Translations under genes and position numbers: made by a program
Part shown: positions 18,708-23,086 of the stretch, piece after piece
Layout: each line of letters begins with the position of its first letter
Numbering within the stretch: the stretch's first letter is position 1
The notes under the pieces: generated by a model
Told to the model about the DNA's origin: nothing
Seen by the model: only the letters and a program-made list of their open reading frames with translations
Databases searched by the model: none
Assembly (NCBI GenBank): GCA_002403175.1
Contig: DHHG01000011.1
Coordinates: 1 to 28,669 of the forward strand
From: Syntrophaceae bacterium UBA4778
GTDB lineage: Bacteria; Desulfobacterota; Syntrophia; Syntrophales; UBA4778
DNA: 28,669 bases
Reading direction: 5' to 3'

Positions 18708-19253
18708 TCATACCTTCAGAAAATCTGATAATTGCCCTAATTGCTTCGCAAAAACATTATAGGCTTCTTGGCCGAAGAGGACAAAACGAACCCGTTTGAT
18801 ATCCGGATGCGTTTTTAGATAATCGGCAGCAGTGCACAATGCAATCTTTGCGGCTTCCGGCAAGGGATAACCATAGGCCCCTGCGCTGAGGGCAGGAAAG
18901 GCAATGCTCGTCAGTCCTTTTTCCGACGCCAGCTTCAGGCTTTCGAGATAGGCGCTTTTCAGCAGATCGGCCTCGCCCCTCGTTCCATCCTTGTAAACCG
19001 GACCGACTGCATGGATTACATACCTGGCTTTGAGATTGCCTCCTGTCGTTATCACGGCCCTACCGGTCGGACATCCTCCTATTTTCCGACATTCCGCCAT
19101 GATCGTGGGACCACCGGCGCGGTGAATTGCACCATCGACGCCACCTCCGCCCCGCAATCCGGAATTGGCGGCATTAACGATTGCATCCGTATCTTCCCTG
19201 GTAATATCTCCCTCGACAATCTCGATTTCCGATTCATTGACCTTGATTTTCAT
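18708..19253 (-). CDS. Macrodomain protein, probable O-acetyl-ADP-ribose deacetylase
   Basis: A 181-residue single macrodomain close to the YmdB/MacroD type, which removes acetyl from O-acetyl-ADP-ribose or ADP-ribose from acidic side chains. Visible features: GDITREDTDAIVNAANSGLRGGGGVDGAIHRAGG with N27, N30, the glycine loop 35-38 and D40, then CPTGRAVITTGGNL, YVIHAVGP and the second loop SIAFPALSAGAYGYP (117-130). All are as expected for an active enzyme. The ATG at 19253 follows GAGG at 9 bases. This start lies inside the end of the permuted phosphoglycerate mutase gene (overlap of 20 bases), so translation is probably coupled. An ATG at 19286 would add eleven residues and is less likely. 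Confidence 0.92.
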   Translation of the reverse strand: MKIKVNESEIEIVEGDITREDTDAIVNAANSGLRGGGGVDGAIHRAGGPTIMAECRKIGGCPTGRAVITTGGNLKARYVIHAVGPVYKDGTRGEADLLKSAYLESLKLASEKGLTSIAFPALSAGAYGYPLPEAAKIALCTAADYLKTHPDIKRVRFVLFGQEAYNVFAKQLGQLSDFLKV

Positions 19254-20838
19254 ACCTGTCGTCCTCTGAGATGTGTTTTCCTTCACCCCACACCAGCATT
19301 CGATAGGTTTTTTCGATTCGATCCCAGTTCTCTTCCCGGTCCATCGACCAGTAGCGACCGATCACGGAGACTACCCTGCCGACTCCCATCTCAACGGTTT
19401 TATTTTCGATCAGCTCGATGTAGTTGGCACCGCTTTCCGGTTGCTCTCCCCGCCTGCCCAGCATGGCGTGAATAAATACGTCCTGCACCCCTTCCCGCCT
19501 GGCCATTTCCAGCAAAGCCAAAAGATGATTGACGGATCCATGCGAACTGAAGAAGGATACAATCCCCATGAGGTGCAGTGGAACACGGCGCTCTTTTGCG
19601 GCCCGTATTGTACTTAGGAAAGCGGCGTTGGCGAAGAACGATCCATCGGCAATGGCCCGATTTATTCTGACCCGGTCCGAATAGATTCTTCTCCCCGCTC
19701 CAATATGGAGATGGCCGACTTCGGAATTTCCTACCGTTCCCGCAGGAAGCCCAACTGCTTCACCGGAAGCTTTTAAAGCTGTAAAAGGATAAGAAGCAGA
19801 AAGTCTATCCATAACCGGGGTGGCCGCCCTGGAAATCAGATTGGATGCTGATTTTTCCTGAATTCCCCATCCGTCCAAAATCAACAACAGAATACGCTTT
19901 TTGTGCCCGTGCCGACTCCTATTGAAAGACTTCAATAGAGACTGCCCCATCATCATCTGAGATTGAGGTATTCCGAATAATTCAAGAATAGTCGGTGCTA
20001 TGTCCGACAGTTCCCCACCGTGTCTAAGTGTAACCTCGCAATCATCAGAGATCAGAATAAAAGGAACAGGACTATCTGTATGGCCGGTATCGATTGCCCC
20101 ATCCGGATAAAGCCATTTTTCCACCGTGCCGTGATCGGCCGTGATAACAACAGACATTCCTTTTTTCAGGGCGGCATCTACGACCTGTCCCGTGTACTCG
20201 TCCACCGTTTCAACAGCTTGTATTACCGCCGTTTCGTTTTCGATATGGCCGACCACATCCACATTGGGAAAGTTTACCAGAACGAAATCGCATTCGGGAT
20301 CATCTATTTTCTCCAAGACGGCCCCGGTAATACCTTTAATCGACATCTCGGGGGCCTCATCAAAAAGCGCAACATCCTTCCGGGTAGGAATTATTATTCT
20401 TTCTTCATTGCGGACTGAATCATTTTTCTTCCCATTCAGAAAGTAACAGAGATGTACGGCCTTTTCCGCCTCGGTAATCCGGGCCTGCTTTAATCCGCCT
20501 GCTGCCAGTACTTCTCCTAAGGTATCAGAGACCACGTTCTCGGGGGGAAAAGCTGCCTTCACGTTCAGTGTCTTGCTGTACTCGATCATGGTCGCAAATG
20601 TAAGATCCAGATCCGGAACCACCGTAAATTCACTGAATTCTGATTCAGTCAGGCTTCGGGTCAATTCTACTTCCCGCTCACCACGGATATTGTAAAAGAT
20701 GACCGAATGTCCCCGTCCGATTCGCCCGGGAGATTTCCCCTGCGCCCCTTCCAGCACCAGTGGTTCGAGTGCCTCATCTTCGCACCCTCTAGAATAAGCC
20801 ATTCGAACAGCCCGGGACAAGGCTCGGTGATCTTTCAT
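19234..20838 (-). CDS. Circularly permuted 2,3-bisphosphoglycerate-independent phosphoglycerate mutase homologue
   Basis: A 534-residue protein of the GpmI (iPGM) family with its halves swapped. Residues 1-302 match the C-terminal part of a normal GpmI: SVIFYNIRGEREVELTRSL, TEAEKAVHLCYFLNGK, PNVDVVGH, VVITADHG, GHTDSPVPF, LSDIAPTILELFG. Residues 313-520 match the N-terminal part: RILLLILDGWG, LKASGEAVGLPAG, VGNSEVGHLHIGAG, RINRAIADGSFF, SVIGRYWSMDRE, WDRIEKTY. The junction LKSFNRSRHGH joins the old C-terminus to the old N-terminus. Expected metal ligands and nucleophile are present: D194, H198, D235, H236, H253, D322, S372. Substrate arginines and lysine R52, R55, K126, R463, R495, R501 are kept, but SDGGVHSH reads SFFSSHGS (H433 kept) and DGRD reads GRRG (461-464). 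The ATG at 20838 has GAGG six bases upstream. Mutase activity is likely but not certain. Confidence 0.88.
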   Translation of the reverse strand: MKDHRALSRAVRMAYSRGCEDEALEPLVLEGAQGKSPGRIGRGHSVIFYNIRGEREVELTRSLTESEFSEFTVVPDLDLTFATMIEYSKTLNVKAAFPPENVVSDTLGEVLAAGGLKQARITEAEKAVHLCYFLNGKKNDSVRNEERIIIPTRKDVALFDEAPEMSIKGITGAVLEKIDDPECDFVLVNFPNVDVVGHIENETAVIQAVETVDEYTGQVVDAALKKGMSVVITADHGTVEKWLYPDGAIDTGHTDSPVPFILISDDCEVTLRHGGELSDIAPTILELFGIPQSQMMMGQSLLKSFNRSRHGHKKRILLLILDGWGIQEKSASNLISRAATPVMDRLSASYPFTALKASGEAVGLPAGTVGNSEVGHLHIGAGRRIYSDRVRINRAIADGSFFANAAFLSTIRAAKERRVPLHLMGIVSFFSSHGSVNHLLALLEMARREGVQDVFIHAMLGRRGEQPESGANYIELIENKTVEMGVGRVVSVIGRYWSMDREENWDRIEKTYRMLVWGEGKHISEDDRYENQGQ

Positions 20839-21156
20839 AACTGACCTCATTTTCCTATTTCCCTGAGCACAAAAAAAACTCAGATTATCCTGGCGCTCAC
20901 CAGCCTGGAAGCACAGCTTTCTCTCTGCACCAAATAAAAAAAATATGCAGCAAATAAGCCTTTTTGAATGCCCAACAGTAATAAACGATAGCCGGACTTG
21001 ATGTAAAGAAAAATTAATACTACCATCCTTTGGATGGCCGCATTTGCATATATCATTGAAGAGTAGCAAAATTTTTCAAAAAAATGGCCTTTTTAATTGA
21101 AAACTCAAATCCTAAATGATACATGGAACCGCTGACAGAAAGTGGTGCTCCCCCTC
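20839..21156. other. Intergenic region between divergent genes
   Basis: 318 bases between the permuted phosphoglycerate mutase gene (-) and the small hypothetical gene (+). It must hold both promoters, but no strong -35/-10 pair was found; TTGAAA near 21098 reading right and TTTACA near 21007 reading left are weak candidates. A short palindrome CCATCC-TTT-GGATGG lies at 21023-21037 and might be an operator. The leftward frame is open through much of this region, but it has no family similarity and is not part of the enzyme. Confidence 0.45.
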
Positions 21157-21525
21157 ATGGCAGTCCGAAGTGACTATAATGAAAAAACCGAGAATGAGAT
21201 CCTCCAGGAGCGTGCAGAGGTTCTAGGCCGCGCCGGAGAAGCATTATCTGTTGCAATTCATAAGATGCAAATCATAGAGGGGCGTATTCATGAAGCATTG
21301 TCTGACGGACTTACAACCAAAGAGGCTGTACGTTCCATTAACCGACATATCAGGCAATTCAATATTGCCAGAGAGCATGCAAAACTGAGGTTTTATTACT
21401 TGATTGTAACCCGGGAGGCTATGGGGTTTCGAAAACATACAATTGTTGAGGACACTTATCGGATTTCCCCACGTAAAAAACCCATAATGAGGAAGGAATG
21501 GATCGGTATAAAAAACAGCGACTGA
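21157..21525 (+). CDS. Small hypothetical protein upstream of pcm
   Basis: A 122-residue, mostly helical, charged protein. Residues about 12-45 form a likely amphipathic helix ([25 protein letters not shown]), followed by a second helical part with [32 protein letters not shown] and a basic tail ([14 protein letters not shown]). There is no signal peptide or membrane helix. I do not recognise a family. Support comes from its length, composition and its 28-base overlap with the start of pcm, whose ribosome binding site lies within its last codons. The ATG at 21157 is preferred; a GTG at 21142 is possible. Neither has a strong ribosome binding site. Confidence 0.65.
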
Positions 21526-22151
21526 AAATGGCAGATTCTCAACTCCGCTCCCGTGGCATTTCGGATGAGCGTGTGCTGAAAGCCATGGAAAAAGTACCGA
21601 GACACCTTTTCGTGGATGAGGCTCTTAGAGATCAGGCATATAATGACAGCCCCCTTCCCATAGGCGAGAACCAGACGATTTCGCAACCATATATGGTAGC
21701 GACCATGACCTCTGCCCTCGAACTAAAAGGAAGAGAAAAAATTCTGGAAATCGGAACAGGATCGGGATACCAAACGGCGGTCCTTGCCGAGCTGGCTGAT
21801 CAGGTCTTCTCCATAGAACGGATAGCCTTTCTTGCTTCCAGAGCAAGAAAGATTCTGGATTCGCTCAACTACTTCAATGTCGCCATCCGGGTCGGAGATG
21901 GGTCCTATGGATGGAAAGAGGAATCGCCTTTCAATTGCATTATTGTTACCGCAGGTGCTCCGGATATACCAAGGACTTTAGTGGAACAGTTGGGTATCGG
22001 CGGAAAACTTGTGATCCCGGTTGGAACGCGATTATCTCAGAATCTGATGCGGATCACTAGACTCTCCAAGGATTTGGATAACGTTAACCTGGAAGACTTG
22101 GGACCATGTCGCTTTGTCGACCTTGTGGGAGAGTACGGCTGGCGGCAATAG
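21498..22151 (+). CDS. pcm: Protein-L-isoaspartate O-methyltransferase
   Basis: A 217-residue SAM-dependent methyltransferase that methylates L-isoaspartyl residues in aged proteins and so starts their repair. Visible features: [21 protein letters not shown], the substrate loop [23 protein letters not shown]-binding motif [29 protein letters not shown], and [22 protein letters not shown] with GGKLVIPVG. Length is standard. GAGGAAGGA precedes the ATG. It is followed by an nlpD-like gene, the same order as in the surE-pcm-nlpD-rpoS cluster of gammaproteobacteria, though surE and rpoS are not beside it here. Confidence 0.96.
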
Positions 22152-22216
22152 CCGTTATGCAGATGACCTCGACCTCAAGGCTTACCGATTCGTTGCACGT
22201 TGTAAGCAGATGGAAT

Positions 22217-23086
22217 ATGTTTAAGAAAGTTCTCCTGGCATTCTTATTCCTTTTATTTCTGGCCTGCTCCGGTCCCGGCATATCTGTAAAGCCTGAAGCC
22301 AACAAGGGTATCTATCATCGCGTCAAAAAGGGCGAAACGCTCTGGAGCATCTCCAAAACTTACCATATCGATCTCCAGGAACTGGCTGAAATCAACAACA
22401 TAATCAATCCCGCTTTGATCGAAACGGGGGATGCTATTTTCATACCCGGAGCGGATCAAATATTAGAAACCCCGACCTCCGAGCTTAGAGAAGCTCGGGA
22501 AGACACAGCTAAAGTACAGCACAAACGCCCCCAAACGGCATTTTCTTCAAATCCCTTCAAGAAGACACAAAAAGCAAATTCCGACGGGAATGATTCCTCT
22601 GCCCGCCTGACCGAAACGAATCCGGCTGATAAGGAATCAAATACAACTCCTCCGGTTCAAAAAACACATGTCAAGAATGAAAAGAAACCGGATGAAAATC
22701 AAATTGAAATTGACAGAAAACGTTTTATCTGGCCGGTCAAGGGCACTATTTTATCCAGATACGGCATTCAAGCGAATGGATTAAAAAATAACGGAATCAA
22801 GATCGCAGCCCAGGAAAATACGCCTGTTTTGGCCTCTGCCGGCGGAGAAGTTACCTATTCGGATACATTAAAGTATTACGGCAACACCATCATTTTGAAA
22901 CATGATGAAAATTTTTCGACTGTTTACACATCTTTGAAAAGCAGGCTGGTTAAAGTCGGAGATCATGTCAAGAAAGGAGATCAGATTGCCTTGCTGGGAA
23001 ATGGGGAAACAAACAGCAAACCTTATCTGAATTTCGAAATTCGCCAGACAAACAAACCCAGAAATCCCTTATTTTTTCTGCCCTGA
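22217..23086 (+). CDS. NlpD-like LysM/LytM lipoprotein, catalytically degenerate
   Basis: A 289-residue predicted lipoprotein: signal MFKKVLLAFLFLLFLAC with the lipidated cysteine at 17. A LysM peptidoglycan-binding domain (33-78, YHRVKKGETLWSISKTY...IETGDAIFIPG) is followed by a charged linker (80-165) and an M23/LytM domain (172-289). The zinc-binding pattern of active M23 peptidases is lost: HxGxD reads NNGIK (191-195), the HLHFE motif reads YLNFE (270-274), and the histidine in the YxHL position is a serine (239). Such LytM proteins (NlpD, EnvC) act as activators of cell-wall amidases during division, which is the most likely role. The ATG at 22217 starts a complete lipoprotein signal; longer frames reach into pcm. 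It follows pcm by 65 bases. Confidence 0.88.
   Translation: MFKKVLLAFLFLLFLACSGPGISVKPEANKGIYHRVKKGETLWSISKTYHIDLQELAEINNIINPALIETGDAIFIPGADQILETPTSELREAREDTAKVQHKRPQTAFSSNPFKKTQKANSDGNDSSARLTETNPADKESNTTPPVQKTHVKNEKKPDENQIEIDRKRFIWPVKGTILSRYGIQANGLKNNGIKIAAQENTPVLASAGGEVTYSDTLKYYGNTIILKHDENFSTVYTSLKSRLVKVGDHVKKGDQIALLGNGETNSKPYLNFEIRQTNKPRNPLFFLP

Follow-up and report, generated by a model that had tools for sequence, protein, structure and literature searches.

A gene on the (-) strand of the window, the 28,669-nucleotide stretch of DNA analysed here, encodes a homologue of the phosphoglycerate mutase GpmI in which the two halves of the chain stand in reversed order. On balance it seems to represent an undescribed family: a single ancient permutation would have inverted the GpmI chain, become fixed together with a rebuilt GRRGE loop and been carried in several phyla, by proteins that act in phosphomutation or phosphotransfer on something other than phosphoglycerate. 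Events of circular permutation and the GpmI family are each already known; the novelty lies in a GpmI family that is permuted and carries a fixed pocket change. If an enzyme of central metabolism was here permuted once and then kept across phyla, with an active-site change that is perfectly linked to the permutation in the sequences examined, one could ask by experiment whether the relocation of its chain ends promoted the evolution of a new function.

Chain order of the permuted protein

The permuted gene (P0001; 19234..20838, (-) strand) is a single uninterrupted frame of 534 aa, running from an ATG at 20838 to a TGA at 19236-19234. In a phmmer search of PDB sequences its best match is 1EJJ, the GpmI of Bacillus (Geobacillus) stearothermophilus, with a whole-sequence E-value of 6.4e-120. 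The match falls into two pieces in reversed order: residues 313-521 align with 1EJJ 3-211 (201 bits; 97 of 209 aligned positions identical), and residues 10-302 with 1EJJ 219-509 (203 bits; 114 of 289), an identity of 39-46%. The TIGR01307 profile likewise meets the window protein as two out-of-order pieces, which sum to 490.5 bits against a cut-off of 330.65; the better of them places residues 8-302 on profile positions 214-504. Among Pfam families, Metalloenzyme has its best stretch at residues 97-291 and iPGM_N lies at 392-523; Phosphodiest and Sulfatase also match.

By alignment, the first part of the chain (residues 10-302; 19933..20811, (-) strand) comprises the end of the transferase domain and the second phosphatase part, and it holds the metal ligands D194, H198, D235, H236 and H253. 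A linker of residues 303-312 (19903..19932, (-) strand) connects the former C-terminus with the former N-terminus. The second part (residues 313-521; 19276..19902, (-) strand) comprises the first phosphatase part and the start of the transferase domain, and holds D322 and the nucleophile S372. Apart from 1EJJ 212-218 and the outermost ends, everything has an aligned counterpart. The initial annotation had described halves swapped within one uninterrupted frame, with nothing large lost, and the piecewise phmmer and TIGR01307 alignments bear this out. Its residue numbers are also right: R52, R55 and K126 correspond to 1EJJ R261, R264 and K336, the five metal ligands to D403, H407, D444, H445 and H462, and D322 and S372 to D12 and S62.

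The order is not peculiar to the window. Among the matches listed in three protein searches, all 327 different proteins (query included) are permuted; GRRGE is found in all of them and DGRD in none. These 327 head rankings of some 8000 scored candidates each; they document that the permuted family is large and do not measure the share of all GpmI that is permuted. Chance is excluded by the alignment scores and by the recurrence of the same order in all 327 listed homologues. The linker in this set has a median length of 10 residues (range 6-48). One further permuted gene (L014:9644-11698) has an unusually long linker of about 50-57 residues, against the usual 10 or so, within one open frame.

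Structure model

Structure prediction, which the initial annotation had proposed as a check, gave a confident single chain for the window protein (pLDDT 88.4, pTM 0.84), and each half of it matches its own part of GpmI, 1EJJ 213-510 and 78-243. Halves that fail to fold into one GpmI-like structure, an outcome that the initial annotation had set as refuting, were thus not seen in this model. When the second half was modelled alone, its phosphatase strands did not form. The first half superposes on 1EJJ with an rmsd of 7.0 over 296 residues and on 4NWJ with an rmsd of 1.9 over 292; the value of 7.0 probably reflects a different orientation of the domains in the model. Foldseek and VIA-align depend on chain order and aligned the two halves singly; neither gave a whole-chain match. 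The changed loop is modelled poorly, with a mean pLDDT of 61 for the block 461-470 and values below 50 for 497-502.

Distribution and origin

In the Syntrophus class (the class of genome G004, whose locus L004 comes from a Syntrophus MAG), the permuted protein is present in 66 of 155 genomes. Sixty of these have one full-length permuted match and six have partial matches of at least 59% identity, including one (G091) whose piece stops short of the junction, so that the chain order is not visible in it. The phylum of G026 (locus L033, titled Thermoanaerobaculaceae) has permuted proteins in 14 of 297 genomes, G026 included, and that of G163 (locus L047, titled Chloroflexi) in 1 of 350. The three genome searches left a clean score gap, complete permuted matches reaching at least 528 bits and normal pieces at most 265. 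Titles and names add WOR-3, Armatimonadetes, Anaerolineae, Chloroflexia and Altiarchaeota, mostly from MAGs, in which binning errors are possible. P0244, a permuted protein from a MAG that bears the name Candidatus Altiarchaeota, is 73% identical to the WOR-3 one, and its presence there may be due either to lateral transfer or to a binning error.

P0035, encoded on a contig of 3,179,300 bp that its source assigns to the isolate Syntrophus aciditrophicus SB, has the same chain order; the same protein is encoded by contig C1 of genome G089. Misassembly, which the initial annotation had named as one of two findings that would overturn the permutation, is thereby contradicted. The permuted gene is under purifying selection, with dN/dS values of 0.07-0.23 in eight pairs of close homologues; the lowest value comes from a pair in which dS is saturated.

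Two quick IQ-TREE trees were built after the halves of all proteins had been arranged in one shared order (75 rows, 45 of them permuted; 66 rows, 27 of them permuted). In each, the permuted proteins form one side of a single branch with an SH-aLRT of 100. Since all other sampled GpmI are in normal order, the permuted order would be the derived state, and the best reading is that the permutation was ancient, happened once and became fixed. Alignments, the 327 listed homologues, the single clade and the confident one-chain model thus agree with the circular permutation of a GpmI-type chain that was originally proposed.

An origin by tandem duplication and loss of the outer parts, as initially suggested, is plausible. 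A MAG contig titled Parcubacteria SURF_31 carries two normal-order gpmI genes head to tail, with overlapping open frames (L045:9944-13128); the frame before them is presumably an enolase gene, from the way it reads. The two are 40% identical and stand apart in both trees. A permutation could arise from this kind of arrangement, and the locus shows only that such an arrangement exists.

Active site and substrate loop

According to the available part of PMC3886921, nine residues touch phosphoglycerate in GpmI. Eight of them (S62, H123, R153, R185, R191, R261, R264 and K336 in 1EJJ numbering) are invariant in 379 distinct permuted sequences, as are the nucleophile and metal ligands D12, S62, D403, H407, D444, H445 and H462. 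The exception is D154, which is Gly in all 379. It lies in the loop where the signature GRRGE (residues 461-465; 19444..19458, (-) strand) replaces DGRD and the residue after it (1EJJ 151-155), and the GRRGE columns are invariant throughout the permuted set. D151, G152, R153 and D154 are kept in 38 of 38 distinct normal sequences, a small set gathered by similarity to permuted queries; none of these 38 carries GRRGE, although they do not amount to a wide search. The register of the loop is free of gaps in both phmmer and MAFFT. In every member examined, the loop has lost Asp154 and acquired an Arg and a Glu.

A second signature, SFFSSHGS (residues 428-435; 19534..19557, (-) strand), replaces SDGGVHSH and keeps the substrate-binding His123 as H433. 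Positions 119-122 in the permuted set read F (H in seven sequences and Y in two), F or Y, S and S.

Both replacements were absent from the initial annotation, and that of DGRD by GRRG qualifies the name 'permuted GpmI' used there. The name is right for the chain, which is permuted; it is not supported for GpmI in the functional sense, as none of the permuted sequences examined retains all nine substrate contacts. E465 adjoins the lost Asp, whose place it or the extra Arg may take, and phosphoglycerate could still be handled.

Other phosphoglycerate mutases in the host genomes

Another phosphoglycerate mutase family scores over its cut-off in all 44 permuted genomes tested. These consist of 29 genomes chosen from 39 loci with a full-length permuted frame, and 15 more; the window's own genome is not among them. 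Within the 29, ApgM is found in 27, a normal but distant GpmI in eight and dPGM in five; the two that lack ApgM (G015 and G026) both have dPGM. Fourteen of the 15 further genomes have ApgM, and the remaining one (G359) has a normal GpmI instead. The idea that the permuted protein is the sole glycolytic mutase of its hosts is thus not supported. The normal-order GpmI of the eight genomes (L064-L071) are very distant and form a long branch of their own in the trees.

ApgM is common throughout the Syntrophus class, in 140 of 155 genomes at an E-value of 1e-60 and over its cut-off in 136. It is found in 63 of the 66 permuted genomes of the class, the exceptions being G015, G046 and G101. Because ApgM is class-wide, its coexistence with the permuted protein says only that the latter need not be the glycolytic mutase, and does not indicate a linkage between the two. 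G046 and G101, which have partial permuted copies, gave no match to ApgM or to normal GpmI in genome searches that covered these two of the three families. For S. aciditrophicus, three archaeal-type iPGMs are named in the available part of PMC2964296, in agreement with the three ApgM of G089; the same part reports two or more mutase families in many bacteria.

All seven permuted proteins scanned (the window protein, P0035, P0124, P0242, P0244, P0315 and P0231) pass the TIGR01307 equivalog cut-off by summing two out-of-order pieces. In their sources, permuted proteins go by several names: phosphoglycerate mutase, alkaline phosphatase family protein and sulfatase-like hydrolase. With such model passes and such varied names, counts of glycolytic mutases in these genomes may be wrong.

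Gene neighbourhood

Immediately downstream of the permuted gene lies a macro-domain gene (18708..19253, (-) strand; Pfam PF01661), which overlaps it by 20 nt if the ATG at 19253 is used. Its product passes the O-acetyl-ADP-ribose deacetylase model (NF001664, 221.6 bits against a cut-off of 200). In 23 of 37 scorable loci, among them the window, a macro gene directly follows the permuted gene on its strand, with a 4-nt overlap in six of the 23, and the two genes are probably co-transcribed. Scorable loci number 37 of 40, as three (L015, L023 and L029) were lost by the gene picker. On the other side is a conserved context of divergent neighbours (21142..23086, (+) strand) that encode a 127-aa protein, PCMT and a LysM/M23 peptidase; over the 37 loci these are found in 26 (as the 127-aa protein family), 28 and 30, respectively. 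The 127-aa protein of the window (21142-21525) has no Pfam or NCBIfam match.

The contexts in the phylum of L033 are different, with either glycosyltransferase, PALP and transaldolase or KDO transferase, M23 and an ABC transporter. These were drawn from 16 loci, five of them without a centre gene: the picker missed two (L145 and L149), and three (L147, L151 and L153) have no long motif-bearing frame. No pathway follows from gene context, and as a clue to function the neighbourhood is a weak lead.

Proposed function

In the proposed rearrangement, a bridge of about 10 residues would have connected the original termini, which both lie in the phosphatase domain, and the chain would have been opened within the transferase domain to give the present ones. 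The phosphatase domain would now be continuous (about 100-386) and the transferase domain split (1-99 and 387-521), the inverse of GpmI.

GpmI uses a metal-activated Ser, a phosphoserine intermediate and transfer of the phosphate within a cavity that is closed by movement of the two domains. To judge from its sequence, the permuted protein most likely performs chemistry of this type on a different, still acidic substrate; that the substrate is still acidic is suggested by the retention of all the arginines and the addition of one. Two metals would activate Ser372, which would accept the phosphate of a bound phospho-acid and then either return it or pass it on within the interdomain cavity. On the best reading, the protein would be a phosphoseryl metallo-phosphomutase or phosphotransferase whose substrate has changed. 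To work like GpmI is a different matter from being GpmI, and the latter fails on the chain order and on D154. The family, an anciently fixed circular permutation of the GpmI chain, is probably a paralogue with a changed substrate or acceptor, not the glycolytic mutase: all members examined lack Asp154 and have an additional Arg and Glu, and the tested hosts have another mutase.

The invariance of all metal ligands and of eight of the nine substrate residues would also suit a protein that has kept phosphoglycerate mutase activity, as a permuted isozyme retained alongside ApgM or another mutase, with GRRGE filling the role of DGRD. The TIGR01307 equivalog cut-off is passed, several mutase families coexist in many bacteria (PMC2964296, available part), and two genomes with partial permuted copies (G046 and G101) show no ApgM. 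However, none of the 379 permuted sequences has D151, G152 or D154, which all 38 normal ones retain, and all 44 genomes tested have another family over its cut-off; a retained mutase function is a serious alternative but an unlikely one. If instead mutase function had been lost, with the phosphoserine still formed and water taking the phosphate, the protein would be a phosphatase only. This would fit an intact phosphatase site combined with an altered loop on the transferase side, and a superfamily rich in hydrolases, as the Phosphodiest and Sulfatase matches illustrate. This is rather improbable, as the transferase-side substrate arginines and K336 are kept in all 379 permuted sequences, which would not be expected of a useless acceptor site, and the whole transferase domain is retained. 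An artefact of assembly or gene fragmentation, or a decaying gene, can be dismissed, given the low dN/dS and an order that recurs in many separate assemblies (60 full-length and six partial copies among 155 genomes, 14 of 297 in a second phylum) and in the isolate-attributed 3.18-Mb contig.

Comparison with known systems

A search of the open-access literature found no description of a permuted GpmI among the papers that it listed. The string 'permut' is absent from the main text of PMC2964296, and the available parts of PMC2876114, PMC6957218, PMC11356508 and PMC5382265 contain no such description.

The closest known family is GpmI itself (TIGR01307; 1EJJ, 1O98), to which both halves are homologous and with which the permuted proteins share the metal ligands, the nucleophile and eight of nine substrate contacts. 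Unlike GpmI, they have reversed halves, a replaced D154 and DGRD, and probably a continuous phosphatase domain with a split transferase domain. ApgM (TIGR00306) belongs to the same superfamily, but the permuted protein matches its model weakly, over the second phosphatase part only, at 40.7 bits and far below the cut-off of 320; ApgM moreover has a gene of its own in 27 of the 29 permuted genomes of the first tested set and in 14 of the 15 of the second. Phosphopentomutase (NF003766) and PhpG (NF038358) are also members of the superfamily and, by the names of their models, have substrates outside the GpmI reaction; the permuted protein scores 37.8 bits against 256 for the former and 17.6 against 545 for the latter. 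As natural permutations related to a straight-order protein, glutathione synthetase (PMC2876114) and the cpRAS GTPases (PMC2430557), as presented in the available parts of these sources, offer parallels among unrelated proteins.
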